The notes beneath the pieces are model-generated. The model saw nothing but the letters and a program-made list of their open reading frames with translations, was not told where the DNA came from and searched no databases. Shown here in pieces: positions 5,498 to 49,713 of a stretch of DNA of 64,000 nucleotides (within the stretch, counting starts at the first letter, position 1; each line of letters starts with the position of its first letter). The DNA is taken from the NCBI GenBank assembly GCA_018433675.1, contig JAHDQS010000045.1, positions 1-64,000 on the forward strand. Reading direction: 5' to 3'. The stretch comes from Clostridia bacterium (lineage in GTDB: Bacteria; Bacillota; Peptococcia; DRI-13; SM3-B62). The position numbers and the translations under genes were made by a program.

Positions 5498-6088
5498 ATG
5501 GATATAGAAATTAAGAATATTTACAAGAGTTTTGGGGACCAAGTTGTGCTCGAAAACTTTTCGGCAAGACTAAAGGAGGGGCAGGTCACCTGTATCATGG
5601 GTCCTTCCGGTGTTGGGAAAACCACCCTCCTCAATATCTTGATGGGTTTTATGCAGACGGACAGCGGCGAAATTCTTGGGGTACCCGCCAAAAAAAGCGC
5701 TGTTTTTCAGGAGGAAAGACTGTGTGAATCTTTCAGTGCCGTGACCAATGTGCGTCTGGTTTGCTCCAAAGAACCCTGCACCGAGATCATTAAAGAACAT
5801 CTCAGCAGGATAGGGCTAAAAGACAGCATGTACAAACCTGTAAGCGAATTGAGCGGGGGAATGAGGCGTCGTGTGTCTATTGTGCGTGCCGTTTTGGCCA
5901 ATCGGGACATTATCTTCCTGGATGAGCCGTTCAAGGGTCTTGATGAAGGGACAAAGGAATCTGTCATGGAGTATGTCAAAGCAAATATCCAAGACAAAAC
6001 AGCAGTGATGATCACTCATGACCCCGATGAAGCTAAAACCATGTGTGGGGATCTTATTTATATGGGAGAGGGGAAAAACCATGATTAA
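5498..6088 (+). CDS. NitT/TauT family ABC transporter ATP-binding protein (short)
   Basis: 196-residue ABC ATPase with Walker A GPSGVGKTT, Q-loop AVFQEERL, signature LSGGMRRRVS, Walker B IIFLDEPFKGLDE and H-loop MITHDPDEA. It is shorter than usual for the SsuB/TauB class (about 240-260 residues) because the region after the H-loop is almost absent; all catalytic motifs are kept. It overlaps the HydE-like gene by 8 nt, so it is translated together with it. Confidence 0.88.
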   Translation: MDIEIKNIYKSFGDQVVLENFSARLKEGQVTCIMGPSGVGKTTLLNILMGFMQTDSGEILGVPAKKSAVFQEERLCESFSAVTNVRLVCSKEPCTEIIKEHLSRIGLKDSMYKPVSELSGGMRRRVSIVRAVLANRDIIFLDEPFKGLDEGTKESVMEYVKANIQDKTAVMITHDPDEAKTMCGDLIYMGEGKNHD

Positions 6089-7064
6089 ACCGGACAACAA
6101 AGAAGACATCCTACAAATCCTGCAAATGCCTTATGGAGAGTTTAAAGATACAGTCATGGCTGAAGCGAAAAGGATACACCGTGAGCAAAACGGTAATATC
6201 CTGCGTGCTGTGGCTATGCTGGGATTCGACAATATTTGCAAAAACCAATGCCTTTATTGCGGGATGAGAGCCGGAAACAACACTATTCAGCGTTATCGGA
6301 TTAACCCCGACACGGTTGTTCTGTCTGCTCAGGCGGCTTATAGTCTGGGTTTCAGGCGCATCTTTCTGATTTCAGGGGAAGATCCCAAATACGGCTTCGA
6401 CAATTTATTGACAATGACCGAGCAGGTCAAAAAAGTCGGGTTTTGGATTAGTATGGCTTGCGGAGAGTTTTCCCTTGACCAGTATCGAGCGCTTCATGAA
6501 GCGGGTGTTGACGAATATGTCTTGAAATTTGAGACGTCCAATCCAAAAACCTTCGATCGTCTGAAACCTAACACGACATTCGCAAAAAGGATGAAGTGCA
6601 TCGAATGGATACGACAAAGCGGGATGCAGCTTGCCTCAGGAAATATTGTTGATTATCCCGGTCAGACCTTGGAAGAACTGGCCGAAGACATACTATTGAT
6701 GAAGAAATTGCAAATCAGCTGGGCTCCTGTGATACCTTACCTGCCGGCCAAGAATACTCCTCTGGCGACAGAAGGAGGGAGGGGCAGTCTCGAAAAAAAC
6801 CTGAAAGAAATAGCCATTATGAGGATAATGATGTCTGGGATTAATATTACAGCTCAACAGCCCGGGGAAAGCAGCGCAAAAGGCCTGGCCGATGAAGAAG
6901 GGAACTTAAATGCCCTGGAGGCGGGGGCTAATATGCTTTTTGCCGATATGCTTCCCGATACCCTCGCTAAGAACTTCAGTGTGGTTGACAACAGAATAAC
7001 CCTCGGCCTTGAACACATACAAAAAATGGCCGGGTTAAGCGGCATGAAGATTGAATACCGATAA
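6081..7064 (+). CDS. HydE-like radical SAM enzyme
   Basis: 327 residues from the ATG at 6081. The radical SAM cluster motif is CKNQCLYCG (C-x3-C-x2-C), followed by YRINPDTVV, the HydE-type SGEDPKYG, GVDEYVLKFETSNPKTFDRLKPNT and DYPGQTLEELAEDILLMKK. HydE is one of three maturases of [FeFe]-hydrogenase and acts on an HydG-derived iron synthon. Here there is no HydF, HydG or hydrogenase gene, and the C-terminus contains no cysteines, so the second iron-sulfur site seen in Thermotoga HydE is missing. The gene is co-transcribed with a solute importer. It may be a hydrogenase maturase or a paralogue with a different substrate. Confidence 0.75.
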   Translation: MIKPDNKEDILQILQMPYGEFKDTVMAEAKRIHREQNGNILRAVAMLGFDNICKNQCLYCGMRAGNNTIQRYRINPDTVVLSAQAAYSLGFRRIFLISGEDPKYGFDNLLTMTEQVKKVGFWISMACGEFSLDQYRALHEAGVDEYVLKFETSNPKTFDRLKPNTTFAKRMKCIEWIRQSGMQLASGNIVDYPGQTLEELAEDILLMKKLQISWAPVIPYLPAKNTPLATEGGRGSLEKNLKEIAIMRIMMSGINITAQQPGESSAKGLADEEGNLNALEAGANMLFADMLPDTLAKNFSVVDNRITLGLEHIQKMAGLSGMKIEYR

Positions 7065-8614: not shown

Positions 8615-10012
8615 TTGAAAAGAAAATGTTTGTCGCTTGATAAAGAAACTTTGCTGACTATAATTGAGAATTTACAGGAGTCGGTCTTCGTAACCGATGG
8701 GGAAGGGAAAATAATTTTAGTCAATTCAGTTGCTGTTAAATTGCTTGGAATTCCTGCAGAGGATATGGTAGGGTATTATGTTTCGGATATGATAAAAAAG
8801 GGGTTCTGGACTAATTCGGCAGTTTTAGAAGCCATTAAGACAAGAGATACTGCCATTGCAACAATTATCAACCAAGATGGCACCAGAAACATATCTACAA
8901 GTATTCCTATATTCGATGAGCAAGGAGAAACAAAGCTTATAATCACTAACAGCAGCGGAGAAAGTAATCTTTTAAAACTATATGAAATCTTGGAAAGAGA
9001 AAAAAGGGGGGCCGATCGTTATAAACGCGAACTGGAATATATGCGGCAATCCAAAGAAAATCAGATAGTGAAAGAAAGCCCGGCAATAAAAAAAGCATTA
9101 CAGGAGGCTTTTGCAGCAGCTAGAACGGACAATAGCGTCATAATAACCGGGGAAACCGGCGTTGGTAAGGATGTAATAGCAAATTATATTCATATAAACA
9201 GTGATCGTTCCCAAGAGGCATTTGTCGATATCAACTGTGCCGCGATTCCGGACAGTTTGTTTGAAGCGGAGCTTTTTGGTTATGAGAAAGGGGCATTTAC
9301 GGGAGCTAATTTATTGGGGAAGATGGGATTGTTAGAAGCGGCAGAAAAAGGCACAGTGTTCTTGGATGAAATAGCTGAGCTGCCGCTATCATTTCAGGCC
9401 AAACTGTTACGGGTTTTAGAAAACAAAGAATTTCGTCGAGTGGGTGGAACGAAAAATATCAAAACGAATGCACGTATTATTTGTGCAACAAATCGAAATT
9501 TAAAGCAAATGGTCCGCGAAGGAGCATTCAGGAGCGATTTATTTTATCGATTAAATGAGTTTTCAATACAAGTTGAACCGCTATGTAATCGGCGAGAGGA
9601 TATTATTCCTTTGGCTGAATTGTTTTTAAAAAAATATAACGATAAATACAACACCGATAAATATTTTTCCGAACAAATGAAAAGGAGCATGGAGAAATAT
9701 ACATGGCCAGGCAATATAAGGGAAGTTAGGAATGTGGTAAGCCGCGCCTACATTGTTTCTGAGGGTTCGAGAATAGATTCCGTGAATATATTTTTTGACC
9801 AACCCGAAACAGAATACAAATCTTCATCAATGGAAGAATATTTTGGGGGTTACGTTCAGCGAAAGGTATCATTGAAGGAGTTCCGAAAAGAGGTCGAGTC
9901 CAAATATATCAACGATATTATCGGATTATGCGAAGGAAATATAGTGGATGCGGCAAAGATATTGGGAATCCATCGTTCTCATCTATATCGAAAGAAGGTT
10001 AATAGCATATAA
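8615..10012 (+). CDS. PAS-domain sigma-54-dependent transcriptional activator
   Basis: 465 residues, starting at TTG 8615 behind a GGGGGGGA site. Order: an N-terminal PAS sensor (about 10-120, LQESVFVTDGEGKIILVN), a short linker, an AAA+ sigma-54 interaction domain (about 150-385) with Walker A GETGVGKD, an intact GAFTGA loop, Walker B GTVFLDEIAEL and an arginine-finger region, and a Fis-type helix-turn-helix at the end (GNIVDAAKILGIHRSHLYRKK). Such proteins hydrolyse ATP to open sigma-54 promoters. A palindromic UAS and a -24/-12 promoter lie directly downstream of the stop, so its target is almost certainly the operon starting at 10236. The PAS ligand is unknown. Confidence 0.92.
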   Translation: MKRKCLSLDKETLLTIIENLQESVFVTDGEGKIILVNSVAVKLLGIPAEDMVGYYVSDMIKKGFWTNSAVLEAIKTRDTAIATIINQDGTRNISTSIPIFDEQGETKLIITNSSGESNLLKLYEILEREKRGADRYKRELEYMRQSKENQIVKESPAIKKALQEAFAAARTDNSVIITGETGVGKDVIANYIHINSDRSQEAFVDINCAAIPDSLFEAELFGYEKGAFTGANLLGKMGLLEAAEKGTVFLDEIAELPLSFQAKLLRVLENKEFRRVGGTKNIKTNARIICATNRNLKQMVREGAFRSDLFYRLNEFSIQVEPLCNRREDIIPLAELFLKKYNDKYNTDKYFSEQMKRSMEKYTWPGNIREVRNVVSRAYIVSEGSRIDSVNIFFDQPETEYKSSSMEEYFGGYVQRKVSLKEFRKEVESKYINDIIGLCEGNIVDAAKILGIHRSHLYRKKVNSI

Positions 10013-10028
10013 CCGATTGCCGTAATTT

Positions 10029-10103
10029 CAAATATAATAAGAGAAAGTCTCATTTGTGCGACAGATATTGTTGTATAAATGAGACTTTCTCATTTATACA
10101 ACA
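10029..10103 (+). promoter_or_regulatory. Upstream activating sequences of the sigma-54 operon (two dyads)
   Basis: A perfect inverted repeat with 16-bp arms, TGTTGTATAAATGAGA-ctt-TCTCATTTATACAACA, spans 10069-10103. A second, weaker copy has its right arm TCTCATTTGTGCGACA at 10048-10063 and a degenerate left arm from about 10029. The centres are 40 bp apart (about four helical turns), as expected for cooperative binding of activator dimers, and the strong dyad is about 70 bp upstream of the -24 element. The likely ligand is the Fis domain of the activator encoded just upstream. Confidence 0.85.
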
Positions 10104-10157
10104 CATGTTAAATACGGATAATTGTTGATATTACTTGTTTTTGTTTTAAGAAAACCT

Positions 10158-10172
10158 TGGCATGGTATTTGC
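10158..10172 (+). promoter_or_regulatory. Sigma-54 (-24/-12) promoter
   Basis: TGGCATGGTATTTGC matches the sigma-54 consensus TGGCAC-N5-TTGC, with exactly 10 bp between the invariant GG and GC. Transcription should begin near 10184 and read the operon from 10236 to 14818. Confidence 0.9.
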
Positions 10173-10235
10173 GAATTAAAAACTCAGATGCACCGACATC
10201 TTATGAAATACAAAATAGCAGATGGGGGTAGGTAA

Positions 10236-11270
10236 ATGAGAGTAGCGGTTATTGGAGCCGGTTCTATCGGAACCATTGTAGGTGCACTTATAGCTAAGAA
10301 AGGAGGTGAGATTGAACTAATAGATTCCTTCGTTGAAAACGTAAACGCACTTAACAGAAACGGAGCCGTTATTACCGGGGCTATTGAGGAATGTGTCGCG
10401 GTGAAGGCTATGACACCAGAAGAAATGACCGGTATTTATGACTTAGTATTCTTAACGACAAAGCAGATTTCTAATGAAGAAGTTCTAACTCATTTAGTAC
10501 AATTTATAGATAAAAACAGCACTGTATGCACCCTGCAAAATGGGATACCGGAGGAATCGGTAGCAAGAATTATTGGGAAAGAAAGAACGGTAGGAGGTGC
10601 GGTGGGATTCGGAGCCACTTGGAAAGGACCGGGGATCTCGGAGCTGACATCCTCAAAGAAAGTAATGGAGCAATATGCGTTTGATGTTGGTGAAATCGAT
10701 GGTTCCATTACCCCAAGGATTAAAAAAGTACAGGATATTTTGAGTAAAGTAGGATGTACCACAGTTTTGGATAATTTAATGGGACTACGGTGGTCAAAAC
10801 TATTAATGAATGCAACATTTAGCGGTATGTCTGCTGCGCTTGGATGTACTTTCGGCGATGTTCTGAACCATGATGAAGGAATTAAATATGTGGCATACAT
10901 AGCAGATGAAACGATTAAAACAGCAAAAGCCTGTGGCATAGAATTGGCGAAGATGCAGGGAAAAGACTTTTTAGAGCTTGAACTTGAATCCAACTCCGAT
11001 GTTGTTAACAAGTTAGCTTTTTATCATGAAGTTTGGGATCAGCACAGCTTATTGAAAGCCAGCATGCTGCAGGATTTAGAAAAACAGCGCAAAACAGAGA
11101 TTGATTATATAAACGGTTGTGTATGCAAAAAAGGAAGAGAAGTGGGGATTGCCACACCTTACAACGATATGGTTGTCGCAATTGTGAAAACTGAGGAAGC
11201 CAACGGAAGTGTGAACGCAAAAATGGCTGCATTGGAACAGTTCAGAGTACTGGAGAGGAGGATACTATGA
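10236..11270 (+). CDS. Ketopantoate reductase (ApbA/PanE) family NAD(P)-dependent reductase
   Basis: 344 residues with an N-terminal Rossmann fold (VAVIGAGSIGTIVGALIAKKG), the family's TLQNGIPEE motif near residue 100, and a helical C-terminal half with RWSKLLMNATFSGMSA, which contains the Lys and Asn used by PanE-type enzymes. The family interconverts 2-keto acids or beta-keto groups and hydroxyls. It is longer than housekeeping PanE (about 300). Its place in a sigma-54 catabolic operon, next to BKACE and with no pantothenate genes, argues for a catabolic substrate. First gene of the operon, overlapping the next by 4 nt. Confidence 0.8.
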   Translation: MRVAVIGAGSIGTIVGALIAKKGGEIELIDSFVENVNALNRNGAVITGAIEECVAVKAMTPEEMTGIYDLVFLTTKQISNEEVLTHLVQFIDKNSTVCTLQNGIPEESVARIIGKERTVGGAVGFGATWKGPGISELTSSKKVMEQYAFDVGEIDGSITPRIKKVQDILSKVGCTTVLDNLMGLRWSKLLMNATFSGMSAALGCTFGDVLNHDEGIKYVAYIADETIKTAKACGIELAKMQGKDFLELELESNSDVVNKLAFYHEVWDQHSLLKASMLQDLEKQRKTEIDYINGCVCKKGREVGIATPYNDMVVAIVKTEEANGSVNAKMAALEQFRVLERRIL

Positions 11271-12088
11271 CAAAAACTATTATTACGGTAGCTCCCACAG
11301 GGGCCTGGCCCAAAAAAAAGGATAATCCTAATATCCCTTTGACTCCTCAGGAGATTGCTAATGATGTCTATGAGTGTTGGAAAGCAGGAGCTTCGATTTG
11401 TCATCTGCATATGCGTGATGACGAGGGGAATGGCACGATGGATGTAAACAAGTTTAGGGAGACTGCTCGACTGATTAGATCCCATACGGATTGCGACATT
11501 CTTTTTAATTTCACCACATCCGGTGATTTAAATGCATCAGATGAGACCCGGCAGATTCATGTAAAGGAGCTCACTCCGCAATTAGCCTCCTATGACTGCG
11601 GTTCTATGAATTGGCAGCACAACTCTGTGTTTTTGAACACACCCTTATTTCTCGAGAAGCTCGGGCTGACAATGCAAGAGGCTGGAACAAAGCCTGAAAT
11701 CGAGATATTTGATGCAGGTATGGTCTACAATTCATTATATTATCTAAAAAAAGGTGTACTCAAAGCACCTTTGCACTACCAATTTGTGTTAGGGGCTGCG
11801 GGAGGAATTGCCGCAACTGTGGAGAATTTGGTCTTTCTTAAAAGCTTAATACCGCAAGGTTCAACTTGGTCGGCATTTGGGGTCGGCAGAGGACATATTC
11901 CAATCTTGCTCGCTGCTATTGCTATGGGAGGGCACGTGCGTGTAGGTATGGAAGACAACGTGTTTTTCGGAAAAGGGCAACTGGCAGAATCCAATGCACA
12001 GTTTGTTAAAAGAGCTGCTGATTTTATTCGCCTTGCCGGAAATGAAGTGGCCTCTCCTCAAGAAGCTAAAGAAATTTTGAGTATTTAG
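11267..12088 (+). CDS. BKACE family protein (3-keto-5-aminohexanoate cleavage enzyme-like, DUF849)
   Basis: 273 residues. The family's zinc-binding HxH is present as CHLHMRDDEG, followed by FNFTTSGD, the acidic metal/substrate site RVGMEDN and the GRGHIPI loop. BKACE enzymes condense a beta-keto acid with acetyl-CoA, giving acetoacetate and a new acyl-CoA; substrates range from 3-keto-5-aminohexanoate to dehydrocarnitine and other beta-keto acids. The preceding reductase-like enzyme could produce the required beta-keto acid from a hydroxy acid. The substrate subtype cannot be assigned by eye. Confidence 0.88.
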   Translation: MTKTIITVAPTGAWPKKKDNPNIPLTPQEIANDVYECWKAGASICHLHMRDDEGNGTMDVNKFRETARLIRSHTDCDILFNFTTSGDLNASDETRQIHVKELTPQLASYDCGSMNWQHNSVFLNTPLFLEKLGLTMQEAGTKPEIEIFDAGMVYNSLYYLKKGVLKAPLHYQFVLGAAGGIAATVENLVFLKSLIPQGSTWSAFGVGRGHIPILLAAIAMGGHVRVGMEDNVFFGKGQLAESNAQFVKRAADFIRLAGNEVASPQEAKEILSI

Positions 12089-12121
12089 AGAAAAAAGATT
12101 AAAAAATAAAAGGAGGATATC

Positions 12122-12661
12122 ATGACAAAAAGGTTTCTCTTTAACTGGTGTGTATGGATTGGATTGGCAACTGGGGTTTATGTGGTTTTATATATCTTGA
12201 GCCCGCTAAATGATTATGGCGTTGTTTATGCAACATTTGTGGCATTGCCGATTTATTTTATCTCAGGAGCCAAGAGAGGTGAATATCTAAACTTTGCCTT
12301 TAGTGGTGTGACAGGAGTCGCTTGGGGTTGGCTCTATCTACAAGGTATTTTCTGGATGCTGGGGTTGGGTTTCAGCAACATAGTCTCGCAGGGGTTGGTG
12401 TGCGGAATTGTAACTGTTATATGCTGCGCTTTTCACTTTATTGTTACGCCAAATACTCCTTTTAACAAGTTGCCTGCCATGTTTGGTGGAATTGCCGTAG
12501 CCTTTTCTACGGGTGGTACAAAGATAGTTCCACTAATGATAACCTTAGTATTAGGAGCAACATTGGCTTTGATATGCAACGAAGGAACGAATTTGCTGAC
12601 TGAAGATGGGCGTTGGAAGTTTTTTGCCAAGCCAACAGGAAGTGCTGCTACTAAATCGTAA
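12122..12661 (+). CDS. DUF1097 family membrane protein
   Basis: 179 residues with about five membrane helices and a conserved small-residue-rich C-terminal half (GGIAVAFSTGGTKIVPLMITL), resembling DUF1097 (YcdZ-like), a family of unknown function. Within this operon it is the only membrane protein and could be the uptake or efflux partner of the pathway. A GGAGGATATC site precedes its ATG. No function is proven. Confidence 0.7.
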   Translation: MTKRFLFNWCVWIGLATGVYVVLYILSPLNDYGVVYATFVALPIYFISGAKRGEYLNFAFSGVTGVAWGWLYLQGIFWMLGLGFSNIVSQGLVCGIVTVICCAFHFIVTPNTPFNKLPAMFGGIAVAFSTGGTKIVPLMITLVLGATLALICNEGTNLLTEDGRWKFFAKPTGSAATKS

Positions 12662-12683
12662 GTTTATGAGAGGAGATATTTCT

Positions 12684-13823
12684 ATGGATTATACCGATTT
12701 TTTGAATCTGACACCGGATCAGAGGTTAAGCATCGTACAGGAGGTAGCAAACCTGACCGATGAAGAAAGAGCCATAATCGCACAGGGCAATGCGTTGCCT
12801 CTGGAAAAAGCGAACGGCATGGTTGAAAATGTAATAGGAACATATCAGATTCCGTATGCCATCGCAACAAATTTTGTAATCAACAATAAGCACTACTTGG
12901 TTCCGATGGTGGGAGAGGAGCCATATGTGAATGGTTCTATATGCGGTGGAGCTCTGCTTGCTAAGAATAATGGCGGGTTTACCGCGAGTAATACGGGATC
13001 TATTATGATTGGTCAGGTGCAACTTACGGGTATTTCCAATCCCTTCTCAAGTAGGCTGAAAATAATGGAAGAAAAAGAAGCAATTATGAAGTTGGCTGAT
13101 AGCAAGGATCCGGTACTTCTCTCTTTTGGGGGTGGTTGTAAGAGTATTGCGGTTAGGATATTAGATTCGTATCAAGGTCCTATGGTGGTAGTTCATCTGT
13201 TAGTGGACACAAAAGATGCCATGGGAGCGCAGGTAATGAATGCCATGGCTGAGGCTGTTGCACCATTGCTTGAGAAAATCACCGGGGGAAAAGCAAACCT
13301 TAAGGTGGTTTCCAATCTTGCTGTACATCGGCTGGTACGTTCCAGAGTTTGCGTCAAGAAGGAGGATTTTGGCGGAGAACCGTATGTAGATAAGGTGCTT
13401 TCAGCGTATGCATTTGCGGCGGCCGATCCATACCGTGCTACTACAAACAATAAAGGCGTTATGAATGGGATGATACCGGTGGCATTGGCCACAGGCAATG
13501 ACACAAGAGCCATTGAATCGGGGGTTCATGCTTATGCATCTATATCCGGCACATATAAACCGGTTACGATTTGGGAGAAGAACAATAACGGAGATTTGGA
13601 AGGCATGATTGAGGTTCCAATGGCTGTGGGTATAGTAGGAGGAACAACCAAGGTGCATCCCATGGCACAGCTTTCACTTAAAATCATGAAGATTCAATCT
13701 GCTTTGGAGCTTGCCCAGGTAATTGCATCGGTTGGTCTGGCGGCTAACCTGGGTGTGTTGAAATCTCTCACGACAGTTGGACTGCATGCCGATTTTGATA
13801 AATTACATTCAAGAAGTAAATAA
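12684..13823 (+). CDS. Class II (degradative-type) HMG-CoA reductase homologue lacking the catalytic His
   Basis: 379 residues from the ATG at 12684 (site GAGAGGAGAT). Class II motifs are clear: ENVIGTYQIPYAIATNF, LVPMVGEEP (catalytic Glu), DAMGAQVMNAMAEAVAP, DPYRATTNNKGVMNG (catalytic Lys) and ATGNDTRAIE (catalytic Asp). The C-terminus is cut short: class II enzymes are about 430 residues and carry the catalytic His in a GHM motif before a flap domain. Here the matching place reads VGLHADFDKLHSRSK, with Phe at the His position, and the protein ends. It is therefore unlikely to be a normal mevalonate/HMG-CoA enzyme; a related hydride transfer on another substrate is plausible. Confidence 0.8.
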   Translation: MDYTDFLNLTPDQRLSIVQEVANLTDEERAIIAQGNALPLEKANGMVENVIGTYQIPYAIATNFVINNKHYLVPMVGEEPYVNGSICGGALLAKNNGGFTASNTGSIMIGQVQLTGISNPFSSRLKIMEEKEAIMKLADSKDPVLLSFGGGCKSIAVRILDSYQGPMVVVHLLVDTKDAMGAQVMNAMAEAVAPLLEKITGGKANLKVVSNLAVHRLVRSRVCVKKEDFGGEPYVDKVLSAYAFAAADPYRATTNNKGVMNGMIPVALATGNDTRAIESGVHAYASISGTYKPVTIWEKNNNGDLEGMIEVPMAVGIVGGTTKVHPMAQLSLKIMKIQSALELAQVIASVGLAANLGVLKSLTTVGLHADFDKLHSRSK

Positions 13824-13843
13824 GATTTTAAGGAGGAATTACG

Positions 13844-14818
13844 ATGTTAAACTTTGAAAGACTACCGAAATTGTCGTATAATCAAGATTCATATTTTGTC
13901 CCAGGAAATCGTGCGGACGCAAATATTCAGACGATTATCGCGGAGCCTTGGTTTGAAGTTTCTAAAAAGGGAATACAGCTTGAAGGGGTATGCTTTGATA
14001 GAGATGGTAAAAACTTATTCTTTGTCGAGGTGTTTGGGGGTACCGTCTTTAAACTACAGCTGGACGGCATGAAGCTTTCAAAGATTCAGGAACCGAAAGG
14101 ATATGCTGTAGGTGCGGTAAAAGTCCATAAAGACGGTAGGGTTTTTATATGCGGCATGGGTGACTTGAAAGGCAAGGGTGGCGTCTTCGCCGTGAAACCG
14201 GATGGCAGTGATTATGAGGTGATCGTTGATCCGGACAAGGATTACTGTGTGGATGATTTGGTATTTGACAACAAAGGAGGTTTCTATTTTACGGACTTTA
14301 AAGGAGTGGCAACGAAGCCTGAGGGTGGTGTTTACTATGTATCGCCCGATTATAAAACCATAACGCCGATTCTCAAAAACTTGGCGATTGCTAATGGCGT
14401 AGCTATGACTCCAGACTATAAGAACCTTTGGGTTACTGAGGTTGCCGGTAACAGGGTTTTCTATGTTGCCCTGGAAGAAGACGGAGTTACAATATCTCCC
14501 TTTGGTGCCAGCGTTGCTTGTCACCTGACAGGTCACTTGGGTCCCGACTCTTGCTGTGTGGATGAAGATGGCAACTTATATATTGCAATGTACAATCAAG
14601 GAAGGGTTCTCGTAATAAACAGTAAGGGATTTCCAATAGGGCAGATTGTATTGCCTGAGGCCGCTTCCGGCCATATGCTGCATTCGACCAGCATAGCCTT
14701 CATGCCGGAAAGTGACCAAGTGGTGATATGTTCTAATGACGCAGACGGCGGCAAAGGATCCTGGCTTTATACTGCAAGAGGTTTTGCAAAATATAACAAG
14801 AGCTATCAGCATCTATAA
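13844..14818 (+). CDS. SMP-30/gluconolactonase family (Drp35-like) lactonase
   Basis: 324 residues forming a six-bladed beta-propeller of the SMP-30/LRE type: LEGVCFDRDGKNLFFVE, YCVDDLVFDNKGGFYFTD, IANGVAMTPDYKNLWVTE and GPDSCCVDEDGNLYIAMYN. These contain the metal-binding Glu, Asn and Asp residues of the family. Members hydrolyse sugar or other lactones with a divalent metal. No signal peptide is visible, so it should be cytoplasmic. Last gene of the sigma-54 operon and followed by a strong terminator. In context it may open a lactone intermediate before the BKACE step. Confidence 0.85.
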   Translation: MLNFERLPKLSYNQDSYFVPGNRADANIQTIIAEPWFEVSKKGIQLEGVCFDRDGKNLFFVEVFGGTVFKLQLDGMKLSKIQEPKGYAVGAVKVHKDGRVFICGMGDLKGKGGVFAVKPDGSDYEVIVDPDKDYCVDDLVFDNKGGFYFTDFKGVATKPEGGVYYVSPDYKTITPILKNLAIANGVAMTPDYKNLWVTEVAGNRVFYVALEEDGVTISPFGASVACHLTGHLGPDSCCVDEDGNLYIAMYNQGRVLVINSKGFPIGQIVLPEAASGHMLHSTSIAFMPESDQVVICSNDADGGKGSWLYTARGFAKYNKSYQHL

Positions 14819-14856
14819 AGAAGATTCTATAATTCTATCAAGTATAGCAAACAAAT

Positions 14857-14895
14857 AAATTAGAGAGACACCAGGCTAAGGTGTCTCTCTAATTT
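14857..14895 (+). terminator. Strong intrinsic terminator of the sigma-54 catabolic operon
   Basis: AAATTAGAGAGACACC pairs perfectly with GGTGTCTCTCTAATTT (16 bp) around a 7-nt loop. The symmetrical A/T flanks allow function on both strands. The following 14896-15127 contains no gene that I can see. Confidence 0.9.
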
Positions 14896-28720: not shown

Positions 28721-28747
28721 CGCATGCCGAAAGCTGGCATGCGTTTT
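28721..28747 (+). terminator. Hairpin overlapping the sigma-54 promoter
   Basis: CGCATGCC and GGCATGCG form a perfect 8-bp stem with a 7-nt loop followed by TTTT. It may terminate the activator transcript; the right arm is also the -24 element of the promoter. Confidence 0.6.
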
Positions 28748-29323: not shown

Positions 29324-30157
29324 ATGGCAAAATTTATTGGCAAAAAAACTTTAGATGCCTTCGTGACCATTACACCATGTTTGAAAGATTTATATCCTTA
29401 TGACGTGTTTGTATTTGTCTGTGATACGGAAAAGTATATTGCATATGAACCCGCAGACACCTTCAAATTAAATGCTAAAGTTGGAGATCCGGTTGAAACT
29501 AGTAGTTCATCATATACAGCGATGCAGGAAAAAAGAAAGAAAGTCATGGTAGTAGGGAAAGAACTTTACGGTATTCCGTTTAAGGCTATTACCGAGCCGA
29601 TTTTTGATGAAGAAAATAATGTAATCGGAGCGGTTGGAATCGGGCTGAGCTTGGAGAATCAGAACAAGCTACAGGAGGTTATTGAGCAGTTCAGTTCGGC
29701 CTTTGAGCAGGTAAGCAGCGGTGTACAAGAGATAGCTTCCGGTGCCCAAAATCTAGCGAATATCGGAACCAGGCTGGCGGGAACGACTCAGCAGACAACC
29801 GAAAATGTGAAAAAGACTGATGAAATAATTCAGATGATAAGAGAGATTGCTGATATGAGCAAGCTGTTGGGATTAAACGCGGCAATTGAAGCAGCCCGAG
29901 CAGGAGAACACGGGAGGGGATTTGCCGTTGTAGCCGAAGAAATAAGGCGGCTTGCGGCGGAGAGCAATACCTCCGCCAAGCAGGTGGAGTCTATTTTGCT
30001 TCAGATTGCTGAGGCAATAAAGGGTATGAACGATGACACCCAGGAAACAAGCGCGGTCAGCGAAGAACAATCTTCAGCCACACAAGAAATAGCGGCCTCT
30101 ATGGAAGAATTGATCGCTCAGTTGGAAACGCTGAATGATTTTGTCAAGCTACTGTAA
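29324..30157 (+). CDS. Soluble methyl-accepting chemotaxis protein, copy 1
   Basis: 277 residues, no membrane segments. The N-terminal ~115 residues form a small PAS/Cache-like sensor ([40 protein letters not shown]); the rest is the helical signalling hairpin with the tip [20 protein letters not shown] and [11 protein letters not shown]. The helical part is short, with little room for methylation helices, similar to small cytosolic receptors such as YfmS. Expressed with the CheW gene before it. Confidence 0.88.
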
Positions 30158-30273
30158 GAGTTGAGTCGTTGTTGGTTTTCAACCCCAAAGATAGAAAAAG
30201 ATATTAATTTAAGAGGGAGGGTTATTGATAGACGATAATAGTAAATGCAGACTAGGAAGAAGGAGGAAAAATC

Positions 30274-30711
30274 TTGACGGTGCAAAAAAACGAGTTGCAA
30301 GCAGTAATCATCAGGCTCAATAATACGGAATACGGACTAGAAATCGACAAAGTAAAAGAGATAATCAGAATGGAAGAGATAACTAAACTGCCTGATACAG
30401 CCGAATACATTTTAGGAATTATAAACTTGCGCGGAACGATAATACCAATCATTGATATGAAGAAAAAATTTTTTGAAGAGTCCACAAACCACGGAAATAA
30501 AGCTGAAACCCGTATTGTCGTGGTAGAAGTGGAAAACAAAAGTCTCGGTTTGTTGGTGGATGAGGTAACAGAAGTGATGACAGTATCTGCTGATTCTGTT
30601 GAGAAAGTAGAAAAGGCTGGTATTCAGACTTATAATGAATTGTTTTCGGGTATTATCAGAATAGAGGAGAGACTTATGATTTTACTTAATGTTGATAGGG
30701 TATTAAACTAA
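30274..30711 (+). CDS. cheW: CheW-like chemotaxis coupling protein, copy 2
   Basis: 145 residues, almost the same as copy 1 with a handful of substitutions (for example [20 protein letters not shown], and [18 protein letters not shown] at the end). The start is TTG at 30274 behind GGAGGAAAA. It arose with the following receptor by tandem duplication of a cheW-mcp unit. Confidence 0.9.
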
Positions 30712-30742
30712 AAACCCACAATTACAAGGAGGTTATATATTA

Positions 30743-31576
30743 ATGGATAAATTTGTAGGAAAAGAAGTCTTAAATGCCTTCATAACCATTGCACCATGTT
30801 TGAAAGATTTATATCCTTACGACGTGTTTGTATTTGTCTGTGATACGGAAAAGTATATTGCGTATGAACCCGCAGATACCTTCGATATAAATGCTAAAGT
30901 TGGGGATCCGGTTCAAACCGGTAGTTCATCATATGCCGCGATGCAGGAAAGAAGAAAGGAAGTCATGGTAGTCGGGAAGGAGCTATACGGTGTTCCGTAT
31001 AAGGCCATTACCGAGCCCGTTTATGACGAGGACAATAATGTAATTGGAGCGGTTGGGGTTGGTCTGAGCTTGGAGAATCAGAACAAGCTACAAGATGTTA
31101 TTGAACAGTTCAGTTCTGCTTTTGAACAGGTGAACAGTGGTATACAGGAGATAGCTTCCGGTGCCCAAAATCTAGCGAATATCGGAACCAGGCTGGCGGG
31201 AACGACTCAGCAGACAACCGAAAATGTGAAAAAGACTGATGAAATAATTCAAATGATACGCGAGATTGCAGATATGAGCAAACTGTTAGGGTTAAATGCG
31301 GCTATTGAAGCAGCCCGGGCAGGGGAACACGGAAGGGGCTTTGCCGTTGTAGCCGAAGAAATAAGGCGGCTTGCAGCGGAGAGCAATACCTCTGCCAAGC
31401 AGGTGGAGTCTATCCTGTTTCAGATTGCTGAGGCAATAAAGGGTATGAACGATGACACCCAGGAAACAAGCGCGGTCAGCGAAGAACAATCTTCAGCCAC
31501 ACAGGAAATAGCGGCCTCTATGGAAGAATTGATCGCTCAGTTGGAGACTTTGAATGAATTTGTCAAACTGCTGTAA
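30743..31576 (+). CDS. Soluble methyl-accepting chemotaxis protein, copy 2
   Basis: 277 residues, colinear with copy 1. From about residue 120 on, the two are nearly identical (same [20 protein letters not shown] and EHGRGF tip), and the sensor part is also close ([20 protein letters not shown] against [20 protein letters not shown]). A terminator follows at 31620, so this may be the end of the first transcription unit. Confidence 0.88.
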
Positions 31577-31619
31577 AAATTGAGGTATTGTTGTTTTTCA
31601 ATGCCCTAAAAAGCAATTG

Positions 31620-31661
31620 AGGCTTCTGTCCATACTTAAAAACATGGATGGAAGCCTTTTT
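31620..31661 (+). terminator. Intrinsic terminator after receptor copy 2
   Basis: AGGCTTC-tg-TCCAT and ATGGA-tg-GAAGCCT pair around a 9-nt loop and are followed by TTTTT. Confidence 0.85.
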
Positions 31662-31663
31662 AT

Positions 31664-31692
31664 AACATGATATAAACGTGCTGTTAAGACAA
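31664..31692 (+). repeat. Intergenic repeat, copy 1 (second copy near 33823-33851)
   Basis: ATAACATGATATAAACGTGC followed by TGTTAAGAC here resembles ATAACGTGATATAAATTCGC followed by TGTTAATAT after the fourth receptor. Both follow the end of a receptor gene, so this is either a duplicated regulatory element or a leftover of the gene duplication. Confidence 0.5.
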
Positions 31693-31841
31693 ATTATAGA
31701 AAGTCAGAAGCAATTATAAAGAGGAATATAATAAATTGATGTCGAATTTAGGACCATAATAACAATATCTTAGCAAAAGACAGAATAATACGCTTTGATA
31801 TTTAATTAGCTAAAAAGATGTAAAATAAGGAGGAAAATTAG

Positions 31842-32675
31842 ATGGGGAAATTTGTAGGAAGAGAAGTCTTAGATGCGTTTGTAACTATTGCACCATATTT
31901 TAAAGCTTTGTATCCATATGACGTATGTGTTACTATCTGTGATACGGATAAAATTATCGCGTACGTATCTGCAGATACTTTCGATATAGAGCTTAAGGTC
32001 GGAGAAACGGTTAATAATGGTTCTTCGGCATATGCCGCTATGCAGGAAAGAAGAAGAGAAGTCATAATTGTGGGGAAAGAGGTTTACGGTGTTCCGTACA
32101 AAGCCATTACTGAACCGGTTTTTGACGAGAACAATAATGTAATCGGGACAGTAGGGATCGGTCTGAGCTTAGAAAACCAAAACAAGCTGCAGGAGGTAAT
32201 AGAGCAATTCAGTTCAGCCTTTGAGCAGGTGAGTAGTGGTGTGCAAGAGATAGCCTCCGGAGCCCAAAACTTGGCGAATATCGGTTCCAGGCTAGCGGGA
32301 GCGGCGCAGCAGACGAGCGAAAATGTAAAGCAGACTGATGAAATTATTCAGATGATACGAAGTATTGCCGATATGAGTAAACTATTAGGATTGAATGCGG
32401 CAATCGAGGCGGCCAGAGCGGGAGATCAGGGTAGAGGCTTTGCCGTTGTGGCTGAAGAAATCAGACGGCTTGCGGAAGAAAGCAATACCTCCGCCAAGCA
32501 GGTGGAATCTATCCTGTTGGAGATAGCTGATTCGATAAAGGTTATTAATAACGACACCCAGGAAACGAGTGCGGTCAGCCAGGAGCAATCTTCAGCAACA
32601 GAGCAAATAGCGGCCTCCATAGAGGAATTGACAGCTCAGTTGGAGACACTGAATGATTTTGTCAAGCTGCTGTAA
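31842..32675 (+). CDS. Soluble methyl-accepting chemotaxis protein, copy 3
   Basis: 277 residues. The sensor is more divergent ([40 protein letters not shown]). The signalling half differs from copies 1 and 2 at fixed positions ([27 protein letters not shown] tip, [20 protein letters not shown]) but matches copy 4. It has its own spacer of 265 nt and a GGAGGAAAA site; no cheW accompanies it. Confidence 0.88.
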
Positions 32676-32773
32676 AAGTTTAACTAAGAAAAGAAAACCA
32701 AAGCTTTTGCTTATGTTTCAAGGTATGAAAAAAGCCCTAATAATTTATATCTTAAAATTCCAAGTTCTTTCTG

Positions 32774-32815
32774 CATATAAGTGAGGATACAGATTTGTGT
32801 GTTCTCACTTATATG
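32774..32815 (+). promoter_or_regulatory. Inverted repeat between receptor copies 3 and 4
   Basis: CATATAAGTGAG and CTCACTTATATG are perfect 12-bp arms with an 18-nt loop. Without a T-run it is not a standard terminator; it could be an operator or an RNA hairpin in the receptor transcript. Confidence 0.5.
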
Positions 32816-32963
32816 TATATGTTTAGGAAAAAACTCAAATAAATTTGGGTATATTTAAAGGAATAAAAGGAATAAATATCGAATTCATAGCATATAAACA
32901 AGTGTTATAAAATATTAAGAAAAATTATAATATTAAAAATAAGACAAGATGGGAGGTCCAACA

Positions 32964-33797
32964 ATGGGTAAATTTATTGGCAAAGAAGTTTTTGATGCGT
33001 TTGTAACCATTGCTCCTCACTTAAAAGCCCTTTATCCTTACGATGTTTTTGTTACTATATGTGATTTCAAGCAAGCCGTTTTACACGTGCCGGGTGATAC
33101 CATTGACCTCAAAATCAAGCCGGGCGATCCGATTATAGAGGGAGCTGTGGCAAGGATGGCCATGGATGAAGGAAGACGTGAGGTCAGGGTTACCGGGAAG
33201 GAACTCTATGGTGTACCTTATAAAGCCATGGCAGAACCGGTATATGATGAGAATGATGAGGTGATTGGGGCGGTTGTGGTCGGGCTGAGCTTGGAAAACC
33301 AGAACAAGCTGCAAGAAGTCATTGAGCAGTTCAGTTCAGCCTTTGAGCAGGTGGGTAATGGTGTGCAAGAGATAGCCTCCGGTGCTCAAAATCTAGCAAA
33401 TATCGGTTCCAGGCTGGCGGGAGCCGCGCAGCAGACGAGCGAAAATGTAAAGCAGACTGATGAAATTATTCAGATGATACGAAGTATTGCCGATATGAGT
33501 AAACTGTTGGGATTGAATGCGGCAATCGAGGCGGCCAGAGCGGGAGATCAGGGTAGAGGTTTTGCCGTCGTGGCCGAAGAAATCAGGCGGCTGGCGGAAG
33601 AAAGCAATACCTCTGCCAAGCAGGTAGAGTCTATTCTGTTGGAGATAGCTGATTCGATAAAGGTTATTAACACCGACACCCAGGAAACGAGCGCGGTCAG
33701 CCAGGAGCAATCCTCAGCAACAGAGCAAATAGCGGCCTCCATAGAGGAATTGACAGCTCAGTTGGAGACGCTGAACGATTTTGTTAAACTGTTGTAA
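32964..33797 (+). CDS. Soluble methyl-accepting chemotaxis protein, copy 4
   Basis: 277 residues from the ATG at 32964 (GGGAGGTCC upstream; an ATG at 32949 would lie in the binding site). The sensor is the most divergent of the four ([40 protein letters not shown]), while the signalling half is almost the same as copy 3. This pattern suggests that the sensing part changes while the output part is kept uniform, perhaps by gene conversion. Confidence 0.88.
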
Positions 33798-42826: not shown

Positions 42827-43609
42827 TTGACAGCAGACGATACTTCTTCGCTGATTCTGATAAACAGACTGATGATGAAGGAACAGGACGGGGGCAATGG
42901 CCCTTCTTTTTGTCTTGCATATTTGCCGAATACTTATGAATATGAAAGGTTGACGGAACATTTGCACCCCCAGGAGTTGAAATACTATGAAACTCTCAGA
43001 TACGAAAAGAGAAAAAAGAGTTATTTGGTGGGACGGTTTTGTGCGAAAATGTCTTTTGCAACGGTAAGCGGTGAGAACAAGCCGGAACAGATACTGATTA
43101 AAAAGGGGTTTTTTAACCACCCTGTTTTAATATATTCAGGAATAAAGGACAACCTTGAAATCGGGATTACCCATTGTGATAATCTAGGAGCCGCCGTTAC
43201 ATTTTACCAGGCTTATCCTTTCGGAGTAGATGTTGAAAGGGCAAGCCCGGACAGGGTATCCGTAATGGAAAGAATCATGACAAAAGGAGAAAAAGTATTG
43301 TGGGAGGGACTGGATATTTCTGCCGCAGTTGCTTTAACTGCATTTTGGACAGCTAAAGAGGCTCTTTCCAAGGTCTTGAAGACGGGAATGAATACACCTT
43401 TTCACGTTTTTGAGATAAGCAAAATTGAAGAGCAAGAGGGGTATTTTGTTAATCACTATAGGTATTTCAGCCAGTATTGCTGTTTTACCTTCAATTGGGG
43501 CGGTTATGTTCTTTCTTTGACCTGTCCCCAGGGAACGAAACTGTCGGAAGAGTTCATTCAGGATATACAAGGGGTTTCAGCAAGGTTGAAGCTGCTTGAT
43601 AACGATTGA
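42827..43609 (+). CDS. Sfp-type 4'-phosphopantetheinyl transferase
   Basis: About 260 residues; I take the TTG at 42827 behind GGGGAGAGG, with an ATG at 42788 as an alternative. The family motifs are ITHCDNLGAAVTF, FGVDVERA (Mg2+ site) and FWTAKEALSKVLKTGM. It attaches phosphopantetheine from CoA to the carrier proteins of the megasynthase. With about 50 extra residues at the front and the end it is somewhat longer than Sfp. Confidence 0.9.
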   Translation: MTADDTSSLILINRLMMKEQDGGNGPSFCLAYLPNTYEYERLTEHLHPQELKYYETLRYEKRKKSYLVGRFCAKMSFATVSGENKPEQILIKKGFFNHPVLIYSGIKDNLEIGITHCDNLGAAVTFYQAYPFGVDVERASPDRVSVMERIMTKGEKVLWEGLDISAAVALTAFWTAKEALSKVLKTGMNTPFHVFEISKIEEQEGYFVNHYRYFSQYCCFTFNWGGYVLSLTCPQGTKLSEEFIQDIQGVSARLKLLDND

Positions 43610-43673
43610 ACATTGTTTGATAGAATTTGACATTGCAGACAGTAGAGGCGGTAAAAAGAAAGGGGCTGGTAAA

Positions 43674-46600
43674 ATGAGAAGCTCCGTTGTGTTGATGTTT
43701 TCGGGTCAGGGCTCTCAATACTACGGGATGGGAAAGGAATTATTCGAAAATAATAAAAAATTCTGTGATAGTATGTTGGAACTGGATGAAGTGGTCAAGG
43801 GTTTGGCCGGCTACTCAGTTCTCGACGTCTTGTACGCGGGAAAGGGTAAGAATGAAGAATTCACAGAAGTCAGTTATACCCATCCGGCTCTTTTTATGGT
43901 GCAATATTCCCTGGCGCGGTTGCTGTTGGCTGAAGGAGTTCAGGCAGATTATGTGCTGGGGGCAAGTTTGGGTGAATATGTTGCGGCCGCTTTGGCGGGT
44001 GTGATGGAGCCCGGGGATGTGCTGGAGGTTCTTTTAAAGCAAGCCCTGCTTTTGGAAACACATTGCAAGCCGGGAGGAATGTTGGCGGTTTTTGCCCAGT
44101 GGGGGTTCTATCAGGAGGCGCCTTTCGTTAAGGAAAACAGCGAATTGGCGGGAGTGGGTTTTGCGGATCATTTTGTTCTGGCGGGGGAGAAAGAAAAACT
44201 AAAGGAGCTGGAGCAATATTTTCAAGAAAAGGAGATCATAACACAAATGATACCGGTGTCCTACGGTTTTCACTCCTTTTTAGTCGAGCCGATCGCCGCA
44301 GAGTATCTGTTCTTTATTAGGGAAAAGAAGCTCTTTCTTCCTCGGATCCCCATAGTTAGTAGCCTTGGAGGTTGTGAAATTTCTGAGGTCAGGCCGGAAT
44401 ATTTTTGGGAAGTGACACGGCGACCTTTCCGGTTCGCCAAGGCCATAGAATATTTGCAAAAAAGAGGAAAGCACATCTACCTGGATTTAGGGCCTACAGG
44501 CACTTTAGCGGGTTATGTCAAGCGTAATCTGGGAGAAGGAGCGCAATCATCAGCGTTCCCGGTGCTTACTCCTTTTGGGGGGGAATTAAAGAAATTGAGA
44601 GAGATATTCAGGCTCCTGGCCGTGGGCAAGGGAAAAAGAAAGGGAAATATTGCAAAAAAGGAGGAGCGGGAAATGATAGCCTATTTATTTCCGGGGCAAG
44701 GCTCCCAGCAAAAGGGCATGGGAGGAGAACTTTTTGATGAGTTTAAGGAGTTAACGGCCCAGGCCGATGAAATCCTGGGTTATTCCATCAAAAAGCTGTG
44801 CCTGGAGGATGCGGACAACCGGCTGGTGCAGACCAACTACACCCAGCCGGCTTTGTATGTTGTCAATGCGTTGACCTATTTAAAGAAAATCCGGGAGACG
44901 GGTAAAAAACCGTCATATGTAGCCGGACACAGTTTGGGAGAGTACAATGCCCTCTTTGCGGCAGAGTCTTTTGATTTTGCCACCGGCTTGAGATTAGTCA
45001 AAAAGAGAGGGGAATTGATGAGTAAAGCCACCGGCGGTGGCATGGCGGCGGTAATCGGCTTGAGCCGGGAAGAGATTGAACAAATCTTGCAGGAAGCGGG
45101 CTTTACAAAGCTTGATGTGGCAAACTTTAACAGCCCTTCCCAGATCGTTATTTCAGGTGCCGAAAAAGATATCACCAAAGCAAAACCCGTTTTTGAAAAG
45201 GCCGGAGCGGCTATGTATGTTGTTTTGAAGGTCAGCGGGGCCTTTCACTCCCGTTATATGGAGCCGGCACAAAAGGAATTTGCTGAATTCCTGCAGAATT
45301 TTCAGTTCGCTGATCCGGTGATACCCGTTATCTCCAACGTTCAGGCCAGGCCCTATCAAAAAGGTGAGGTTAAGAAAAATTTGTTGGAGCAGTTCACCGC
45401 TTCTGTGCAGTGGACGGACAGCATCAGGTATTTGATGGGCAAGGGTGTTGAGGAAATGGAGCAGATCGGTCCGGGGAAGGTCCTGACGGATTTGGTCAAA
45501 AAGATCAAAAAGGAGGCCGAGCCTTTAGTTATTCAGGAAAGTATTCCTTTAAATATTGAAACAAAAGGGAAGCAGGAGCCGCCTTCGGCGGTAAATGCGC
45601 AATCTTTGGGAGATAGGGGTTTTAAGGAGGATTACGGTCTGAAGTATGCTTATTTGACCGGTTCCATGTATAAAGGGATCGCCTCGCCGGAAATGGTGGT
45701 AAGGCTGGGAAAAGCCGGCATGATGGGCTTTTTCGGGGCGGCGGGCCTGGACTTAAAGAAGCTGGAGGAGACGATTGTTCGGCTACAAAAAGAACTGTCC
45801 AAAGGAGAACCTTATGGTATGAGCCTCCTGCACAATCCGTTGCATCCGGAATTGGAAGAAAAAATCGTTGACCTTTATCTCAAACACGGTGTTCACATGA
45901 TTGAGGCTTCAGCCTATCTGAGCGTGAGCGAGGCTTTGGCAAAGTACCGCTTGCAGGGTGTAAAGCGTGATAAAGAAGGAAAAGTACGGCCTAAAAACAG
46001 GATAATCGCTAAGCTTTCCAGACCTGAAGTAGCGGAGATATTTATGAGTCCTGTTCCTTCCGGTATAGTTGATAAGCTCAAGGAGAAGAAAGAGATAACC
46101 CCTGAGGAGGCGGAGATTTCCCGAGGAATACCGTTGGCAGACGATGTCTGCGTGGAGGCTGATTCTGCCGGTCATACCGACCGCAGAGCAGCCTCTGTTT
46201 TAATGCCCGCTGTTTTAATACTACGGGAAAAAATGATGAGGAAGTATGGGTACTCCCGCAAAATCAGGATAGGAGCGGCCGGTGGGATCGGTACACCGGA
46301 AGCGGCTGCTGCCGCCTTGGTTTTAGGAGCGGAATTCCTGATGACCGGCTCTATCAACCAGTGCACGGTCGAAGCCGATATAAGCGATACCGTCAAAGAT
46401 ATGTTGGAGGATATCAACGTGCAGGATACCGACTATGCGCCTTCGGTCGAACTGTTTGAATTAGGTGCCAGGGTGCAGGTATTAAAGAAGGGAGTTTTTT
46501 TCCCGGCCAGAGCAAACAAACTGTTTGAACTTTATCGCCAATATGATTCCCTGGAGGACCTGGAGATAAAGACCAAAGAACAGCTTGAAGAACGATACTT

Positions 46601-46928
46601 TCAACAAAGCCTGGAAGAGGTGTGGCAAGAGGTGGCGGCATCTCATTCTCGGGATGAGGTGGAAAAAGCCGGACAGAATCCCAAACAAAAAATGGCGCTG
46701 GTTTTTCGTTGGTACCTGGAGCGTTCCAGCGAGTGGGCATGGGGGGGGCTTGTGCAAAGAAAGGTTGATTTTCAGGTGCAGTGCTCTCCGGCGCTGGGGG
46801 CCTTCAATCAATGGGTTAAGGGTACCTCCCTGGAAAAATGGAAGAACCGGCATGTTGATGAAATCGGGATCAAACTGCTGGAAGAAACTGCTCGTTTATT
46901 GCTGATGAGATACCGGGAGATCTGCTGA
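43674..46928 (+). CDS. Trans-acting AT-AT-ER protein (acyltransferase/acyl hydrolase, malonyl transferase, PfaD-type enoyl reductase)
   Basis: 1084 residues from the ATG at 43674 (AAAGAAAGGGG upstream). First acyltransferase domain, residues 1-300: FSGQGSQYYGMGKELF and GASLGEY (Ser98). Second, about 334-640: FPGQGSQQKGMGGELF and GHSLGEY (Ser420). From about 655 a PfaD-type FMN-dependent enoyl reductase (YAYLTGSMYKGIASPEMVVR, GAAGGIGTPEAAAAALVLGA). In trans-AT systems the GHSLG domain loads malonyl units onto all carrier proteins, while the first domain of such pairs is often a proofreading acyl hydrolase. This shows that the PKS is of trans-AT type; no AT lies inside the visible megasynthase. 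Confidence 0.93.
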   Translation: MRSSVVLMFSGQGSQYYGMGKELFENNKKFCDSMLELDEVVKGLAGYSVLDVLYAGKGKNEEFTEVSYTHPALFMVQYSLARLLLAEGVQADYVLGASLGEYVAAALAGVMEPGDVLEVLLKQALLLETHCKPGGMLAVFAQWGFYQEAPFVKENSELAGVGFADHFVLAGEKEKLKELEQYFQEKEIITQMIPVSYGFHSFLVEPIAAEYLFFIREKKLFLPRIPIVSSLGGCEISEVRPEYFWEVTRRPFRFAKAIEYLQKRGKHIYLDLGPTGTLAGYVKRNLGEGAQSSAFPVLTPFGGELKKLREIFRLLAVGKGKRKGNIAKKEEREMIAYLFPGQGSQQKGMGGELFDEFKELTAQADEILGYSIKKLCLEDADNRLVQTNYTQPALYVVNALTYLKKIRETGKKPSYVAGHSLGEYNALFAAESFDFATGLRLVKKRGELMSKATGGGMAAVIGLSREEIEQILQEAGFTKLDVANFNSPSQIVISGAEKDITKAKPVFEKAGAAMYVVLKVSGAFHSRYMEPAQKEFAEFLQNFQFADPVIPVISNVQARPYQKGEVKKNLLEQFTASVQWTDSIRYLMGKGVEEMEQIGPGKVLTDLVKKIKKEAEPLVIQESIPLNIETKGKQEPPSAVNAQSLGDRGFKEDYGLKYAYLTGSMYKGIASPEMVVRLGKAGMMGFFGAAGLDLKKLEETIVRLQKELSKGEPYGMSLLHNPLHPELEEKIVDLYLKHGVHMIEASAYLSVSEALAKYRLQGVKRDKEGKVRPKNRIIAKLSRPEVAEIFMSPVPSGIVDKLKEKKEITPEEAEISRGIPLADDVCVEADSAGHTDRRAASVLMPAVLILREKMMRKYGYSRKIRIGAAGGIGTPEAAAAALVLGAEFLMTGSINQCTVEADISDTVKDMLEDINVQDTDYAPSVELFELGARVQVLKKGVFFPARANKLFELYRQYDSLEDLEIKTKEQLEERYFQQSLEEVWQEVAASHSRDEVEKAGQNPKQKMALVFRWYLERSSEWAWGGLVQRKVDFQVQCSPALGAFNQWVKGTSLEKWKNRHVDEIGIKLLEETARLLLMRYREIC

Positions 46929-46938
46929 GAAAGGAACT

Positions 46939-49702: not shown

Positions 49703-49713
49703 AGGAGATAGTA

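Follow-up and report, generated by a model that had tools for sequence, protein, structure and literature searches.

The window analysed here is a stretch of 64,000 nucleotides of contig JAHDQS010000045.1 from a Clostridia bacterium (assembly GCA_018433675.1). Our subject is a group of five genes within it, encoding a PanE/ApbA-fold dehydrogenase, a beta-keto acid cleavage enzyme (BKACE), a DUF1097 membrane protein, a homologue of 3-hydroxy-3-methylglutaryl-coenzyme A (HMG-CoA) reductase (HMGR), and a lactonase of the SMP-30/Drp35 type (Table 1). Judged from the sequence, these genes appear to be a real, regulated catabolic set built on a recurring PanE-BKACE core; what sets the set apart is an HMGR relative that has either gained a new function or lost catalysis. 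As to what the set degrades, we tentatively favour an inducible sigma-54 operon that breaks down a mevalonolactone-like 3-hydroxy-delta-lactone, one derived from a 3,5-dihydroxy acid with a secondary C3 alcohol, and would place the chance of this somewhat below even. Profile matches bear out the open reading frames and families (activator, PanE, BKACE, DUF1097, HMGR homologue, and SMP-30) listed in an earlier annotation made from the sequence alone, hereafter the original prediction. The intergenic distances across the five genes range from -4 to +33 bp, and the genes from PanE to the lactonase are therefore likely to form a single operon.

Table 1. Positions in the window of the operon, its activator gene, and the associated DNA elements.
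Feature	Position	Strand	Evidence
Sigma-54-dependent activator, PAS - AAA+ (GAFTGA loop) - Fis-type helix-turn-helix (HTH)	8615..10012	+	Sigma54_activat 1.4e-67, PAS, HTH_8
Weaker third half-site TCTCATTTGTGCGACA	10048..10063		13/16 identity; 40 bp from like-oriented arm
Inverted repeat, two 16-nt arms and 3-nt centre, likely upstream activating site	10069..10103		Repeat search and shuffles
-24/-12 sigma-54 promoter TGGCATGGTATTTGC	10158..10172	+	Exact match; genome count against reversed control
PanE/ApbA-fold dehydrogenase, proposed beta-hydroxy-acid dehydrogenase	10236..11270	+	Family match and gene context of relatives
BKACE (PF05853), TGAWP clade	11267..12088	+	E = 9.6e-103
DUF1097 membrane protein, possible transporter	12122..12661	+	PF06496, 2.9e-10
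Flapless HMGR homologue (HMG-CoA_red), without His381 equivalent	12684..13823	+	Family match, alignment, tree
SMP-30/Drp35-type lactonase (SGL/SMP-30)	13844..14818	+	S. aureus Drp35 2dg0, 2.8e-116
16-bp hairpin closing the operon, possible terminator	14857..14895		Fold energy; U-tract weak on +

The HMG-CoA-reductase homologue

HMG-CoA reductase, the target of the statins, is a textbook enzyme for one reaction. The homologue in the window scores 369.9 bits against TIGR00532 (class II, degradative; cut-off 259.95), and its nearest solved relative is the mevalonate-degrading enzyme of P. mevalonii at 402 bits (7m3h/7m1z, 214). In a tree of 17 rows it falls into a clade with the full-length HMGR of its own genome and those of order relatives; support for its exact position is weak (87/99, with an open fork), and caution is warranted by the length of its end branch, 1.48 changes per site against 0.02, 0.03, and 0.17 for L007, L008, and L009. 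We propose that it arose by duplication of the mevalonate-operon HMGR of this lineage. It deviates at 16 of the 79 columns that are invariant in all other rows, the figure for every other row being at most 9.

The original prediction had treated this protein as an ordinary family member, a description that does not hold, since the active site has been rebuilt and both the flap and the equivalent of His381 are gone. Residues are numbered here by alignment to P. mevalonii. Lost are His381 (now Phe371, with the protein ending about 8 residues beyond it), Gly380, Met382, Gln378, and the C-terminal flap, whereas the GHM motif and the flap are present in all 16 comparison HMGRs of the tree. Four further positions are replaced (Ser85 by Tyr, Asn188 by Gln, His265 by Asn, and Gln364 by Ala). 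Equivalents of Arg261, Asn271, Asp183, and the NAD-specifying Asp146 are kept, as are those of the catalytic Glu83, Lys267, and Asp283, found here as Glu79, Lys257, and Asp273. In the known enzymes the catalytic histidine, brought in by the flap, protonates the CoA thiolate close to a catalytic serine; the nicotinamide ribose is clamped by an asparagine; and Glu83 and Lys267 serve the carbonyl in hydride transfer (PMC10070635, PMC7503714). The alignment suggests that Ser85 and Asn188 are that serine and that asparagine. Read against the mechanism literature, the lost residues would therefore be those of the flap and thioester machinery and the kept ones those of the hydride-transfer site. It probably has some new function, and HMG-CoA reductase activity is unlikely.

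In comparison with its own paralogue the homologue differs by 0.37, 0.24, and 0.68 per site at the three codon positions; the NG86 synonymous distance between the two is saturated and was left unused. These values indicate that purifying selection on the homologue continues, as neutral decay would not give such a codon pattern, and for the same reason a decayed pseudogene is disfavoured. A frameshift or assembly error behind the truncation was likewise considered and rejected: no more than 20 bp lie between the stop codon and the start of the lactonase, in which the alignment to Drp35 begins at the fifth residue. That the HMGR fold, relieved of the flap, the histidine, and the CoA-thioester half-reaction, has become an NAD alcohol/aldehyde oxidoreductase that needs no CoA and serves an undescribed catabolism of mevalonolactone-like 3,5-dihydroxy acids is a doubtful proposition. 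If true, a relative under selection that has the hydride-transfer residues but no lid or histidine would show the fold gaining a new reaction, and would constitute a natural test of the two half-reactions of HMGR.

No second truncated HMGR was present among the full-length HMGRs of nine BKACE-bearing genomes (two loci failed gene calling), and none was noticed in 37 plasmid records, which were not inspected one by one. Searches of the genome contigs with the homologue as sole query, and of viral contigs with the HMGR alignment, returned no relatives. An AlphaFold model made without an alignment was unusable (predicted local distance difference test score, pLDDT, 33).

The genome to which the window belongs (G000) possesses a second, full-length degradative HMGR operon of the sigma-54 type, located beside a sigma-54 activator (contig C53:46000-65000; L012). 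It comprises HMGR, a tripartite ATP-independent periplasmic (TRAP) transporter, a MaoC-like protein, and CoA-transferase III, with two HMG-CoA-lyase homologues nearby; it is conserved in order relatives and probably serves anaerobic mevalonate degradation. Degradative class II operons of the P. mevalonii type and that on C53 share with the window operon a homologous HMGR and an upstream sigma-54-type promoter, and C53 also its genome and lineage. However, they encode a full-length HMGR with GHM and flap, together with TRAP, HMG-CoA lyase, and CoA-transferase proteins, and, unlike the window operon, contain neither BKACE nor lactonase.

The PanE-BKACE core and the lactonase

The BKACE scores 343.7 bits against PF05853 (gathering cut-off 24.8) and retains His46, His48, and Glu230, which we take to be metal ligands, as well as Glu143, Asp231, and Arg226, presumably catalytic (Kce numbering). 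These residues are common to Kce, the 3-keto-5-aminohexanoate cleavage enzyme of lysine fermentation, which belongs to the same family; however, the window protein scores 306.4 bits against NF052387, under the cut-off of 382 for the Kce subfamily, and its clade, marked by the motif TGAWP, carries Trp14 where Kce has Glu14, the residue for the substrate amino group. The PanE-like protein reaches 191 bits against TIGR00745 (2-dehydropantoate 2-reductase; cut-off 141).

When 84,980 species genomes were scanned with the window BKACE and its 72% orthologue, 80 neighbourhoods of this clade were obtained. A 3-hydroxyacyl-CoA-dehydrogenase (3HCDH)-like protein occurs in 46 of them, a sigma-54 activator related to that of the window (33-43% identity) in 44, a thiolase-like protein, recognised by eye, in 26, and a short-chain fatty acid transporter in 22; the dehydrogenase and transporter types were inferred from locus L040 of genome G011 (Pfam, with NCBIfam for the dehydrogenase). 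At six loci (L051, L057, L095, L102, L119, and L120) a close relative of the window PanE is adjacent to or near BKACE, replacing or standing beside 3HCDH. HMGR or SMP-30 was found in none of the 80. Conservation of the gene set in other genomes, whose absence was to count against the original prediction, thus extends to the PanE-BKACE core and stops short of the full set. Carnitine was rejected as a substrate, since the partner dehydrogenase of the G011 BKACE orthologue scores far under the carnitine dehydrogenase cut-offs. The fatty acid transporter beside that orthologue is split into two open reading frames (L040:1435-2779). The own genome carries four more BKACE genes on contigs C49, C40, C28, and C26 (L013-L016), and three of these have a sigma-54 activator nearby; on C49 a second PanE-BKACE pair is accompanied by a 3HCDH dehydrogenase and an acetyl-CoA hydrolase/transferase.

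Approached from the side of PanE, a search of 398 phylum genomes revealed BKACE neighbours in three other genomes and at the second locus of the own genome, while plasmids of Priestia and Paracoccus bear BKACE-PanE-GntP and symporter (Na+)-PanE-BKACE cassettes. Such cassettes, with or without GntP or the Na+ symporter, recur in Priestia, Paracoccus, Peribacillus, Psychrobacillus, and Spirochaetaceae, and the nearest relatives of the window PanE (at most 60% identity) adjoin BKACE. Overall, the PanE relatives adjoining BKACE are approximately 44-60% identical to the window protein and derive from Firmicutes, Spirochaetes, a deltaproteobacterium, and Paracoccus; most of these loci also encode a sigma-54 activator or a permease. 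As in the window operon, most of the chromosomal Firmicute cassettes have a sigma-54 activator; unlike it, they have a permease but no lactonase or HMGR. The coupling of PanE with BKACE is therefore supported by comparison across phyla. No paper giving the substrate of these cassettes was found in the open-access literature, which likewise offered no described PanE-BKACE or flapless-HMGR case, although a description elsewhere is possible.

In four related genomes (L148, L150, L151, and L152) the PanE relative follows acetoacetate decarboxylase, and a two-gene route from a beta-hydroxy acid to a ketone may lie behind the annotation "2-dehydropantoate 2-reductase" at these loci. Because BKACE and acetoacetate decarboxylase both use beta-keto acids, the natural reading of this gene context is that the window PanE clade oxidises beta-hydroxy acids. 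The comparison predicts that a widespread group of proteins annotated as 2-dehydropantoate 2-reductases are beta-hydroxy-acid dehydrogenases feeding BKACE or acetoacetate decarboxylase.

The lactonase is the sole gene of its type in its genome and is rare across the phylum sample. Its nearest characterised relative is S. aureus Drp35 (391 bits), to which it is homologous over the full length and with which it shares Asp138, as expected of a Drp35-type enzyme. The rate of Drp35 on mevalonolactone is 478 umol/min/mg, exceeding that on every other lactone tried at least 100-fold; the activity of Drp35 on xylono-1,4-lactone, fuconolactone, and glucuronolactone is zero or at least 25,000-fold slower, and on pantolactone 0.002 umol/min/mg (PMC6052127). 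Given this preference, our best guess at the substrate of the window enzyme is a 3-hydroxy-delta-type lactone. Drp35 itself is linked to mevalonate supply for biosynthesis and not to a BKACE operon.

Sigma-54 control of the operon

Control of the operon by sigma-54, as the original prediction had it, is supported by an AAA+ activator with the GAFTGA motif, by the exact -24/-12 promoter, rightly described as textbook, and by an excess of the promoter pattern genome-wide. Two exact matches occur in the 64 kb, where 0.18 are expected. Across the genome a closely similar pattern is found 32 times versus 2 for the reversed control, at sites which include those upstream of the second HMGR and near other BKACE loci; this count indicates that sigma-54 promoters are in use in this genome.

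The perfect 35-bp palindrome previously claimed is real, with exact 16-nt arms at 10069-10084 and 10088-10103 where shuffled sequences lead one to expect 0. What had been taken as a weaker second copy is essentially one half-site, placed exactly 40 bp from the arm of like orientation; the partner half is not conserved (partly read by eye). Similarly, the 16-bp hairpin is strong (-27.8 kcal/mol, z = -7.0), but the sequence following it in the direction of the operon is CGCACC, with no T-run, and a terminator pattern scan was positive on the minus strand only. Owing to this poor U-tract, it is best called a plausible terminator of the operon. Elsewhere in the window, at 29324-33797, four tandem and very similar methyl-accepting-type sensors of approximately 280 amino acids each are preceded by a CheW-like gene, a sigma-54 regulator, and, at 28735, an exact -24/-12 site.

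Proposed pathway and its alternatives

In the pathway that we tentatively favour, the PAS activator would bind the repeat at 10069-10103 and drive the -24/-12 promoter. The Drp35-like lactonase would open the lactone ring to yield a 3,5-dihydroxy acid, the PanE-like dehydrogenase would oxidise its C3 hydroxyl to give a beta-keto acid, and BKACE would convert this, with acetyl-CoA, to acetoacetate and the matching (hydroxy)acyl-CoA. The HMGR-fold protein would serve as an NAD-dependent alcohol/aldehyde oxidoreductase at the C5 end of substrate or product, with DUF1097 as a possible carrier. The order of lactone opening, oxidation, and BKACE cleavage, first put forward in the original prediction, is supported by the pairing of PanE with BKACE and with acetoacetate decarboxylase; we infer the substrate class, the sequence of steps, the part played by the HMGR fold, and the transport role of DUF1097. 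Since the tertiary C3 alcohol of mevalonate is not oxidisable by PanE, a desmethyl analogue or a deoxyribonate-like acid fits best.

Several points weigh against this pathway. The PanE/BKACE and Drp35/HMGR pairs would share one substrate only if it were a hypothetical desmethyl analogue. PanE enzymes classically act at C2 and not at C3. The Trp at position 14 of BKACE firmly excludes nothing, and the operon is without a transporter of known substrate, a CoA-transferase, or a thiolase. Moreover, all five genes were seen together in a single genome, so the last three could have come together by chance or recently.

The claim that no described pathway uses this set went too far. In Pseudomonas simiae a lactonase, a 3-keto-acid dehydrogenase, and BKACE share one operon of the oxidative 2-deoxy-D-ribonate pathway (Price et al. 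2019, PMC6365646), so that of the components HMGR alone is without precedent. A reading on that model, with 2-deoxy-ribonolactone opened, oxidised at C3 by PanE in place of a short-chain dehydrogenase/reductase (SDR), and cleaved to glyceryl-CoA and acetoacetate, while the HMGR-fold protein acts on the glyceryl or C5-hydroxymethyl end, is improbable, despite the matching enzyme set and operon logic, the same proposed products (acetoacetate and an acyl-CoA), and the fact that deoxyribonate is a 3,5-dihydroxy acid. The P. simiae pathway employs an SDR dehydrogenase and two major facilitator superfamily transporters where the window operon has PanE and DUF1097, and so the latter does not belong to it as described; it requires glycerate kinase and has no HMGR homologue, and the portion of text searched makes no mention of sigma-54 (PMC6365646). 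The window operon lacks glycerate kinase and deoxyribose dehydrogenase, its lactonase resembles an enzyme that is nearly inert on sugar-type lactones, and HMGR would be left unexplained. We hold in similarly low regard the possibility that mevalonolactone itself is the substrate, the lactonase supplying mevalonate to the HMGR/HMG-CoA-lyase/TRAP operon elsewhere in the genome, PanE-BKACE being a separate pathway under a common promoter, and the HMGR-like protein making mevaldehyde from mevalonate or binding mevalonate as a regulator. The kinship of the lactonase with the mevalonolactonase Drp35, the presence of that sigma-54-type operon in the genome, and the derivation of the window HMGR from its HMGR clade all speak for it. 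On the other hand, HMG-binding and catalytic residues have been replaced, which bars HMG-CoA formation by the known mechanism; on a tertiary alcohol PanE and BKACE would be without function; and the canonical degradative HMGR loci of plasmids have TRAP/tripartite transporters and mostly HMG-CoA lyase, with no lactonase or BKACE.

It is unlikely, though less so than either of these, that the HMGR homologue persists without catalytic activity, as a leftover or scaffold (pseudoenzyme), in an otherwise ordinary beta-hydroxy-acid PanE-BKACE pathway. This would accord with the loss of flap and catalytic histidine, the very long branch, and the absence of HMGR from the 80 BKACE neighbourhoods, but not with a frame that is intact despite approximately 1.5 changes per site, the much stronger conservation of second than of third codon positions, the retained hydride-transfer residues and NAD Asp146, and a ribosome-binding site of its own. 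The catabolism of pantolactone, in which the lactonase would open the ring and PanE oxidise pantoate to ketopantoate, is disfavoured and very improbable. The PanE family name suggests it, and some fungal pantolactone hydrolases are SMP-30-like; however, the partners of this PanE clade, BKACE and acetoacetate decarboxylase, are both beta-keto-acid enzymes, and Drp35 is barely active on pantolactone (PMC6052127).

Two further features of the window lie apart from the operon. A radical S-adenosylmethionine protein resembling HydE/PylB, below the curated HydE cut-off, is encoded at 6018-7064 directly behind a nitrate/sulfonate-like ATP-binding cassette transporter. Large hybrid polyketide/non-ribosomal peptide synthase genes (open reading frames of 4552 and 1110 amino acids), together with thioesterase, ligase, and methyltransferase genes, occupy positions 43596-63372 in what looks like an anaerobe.

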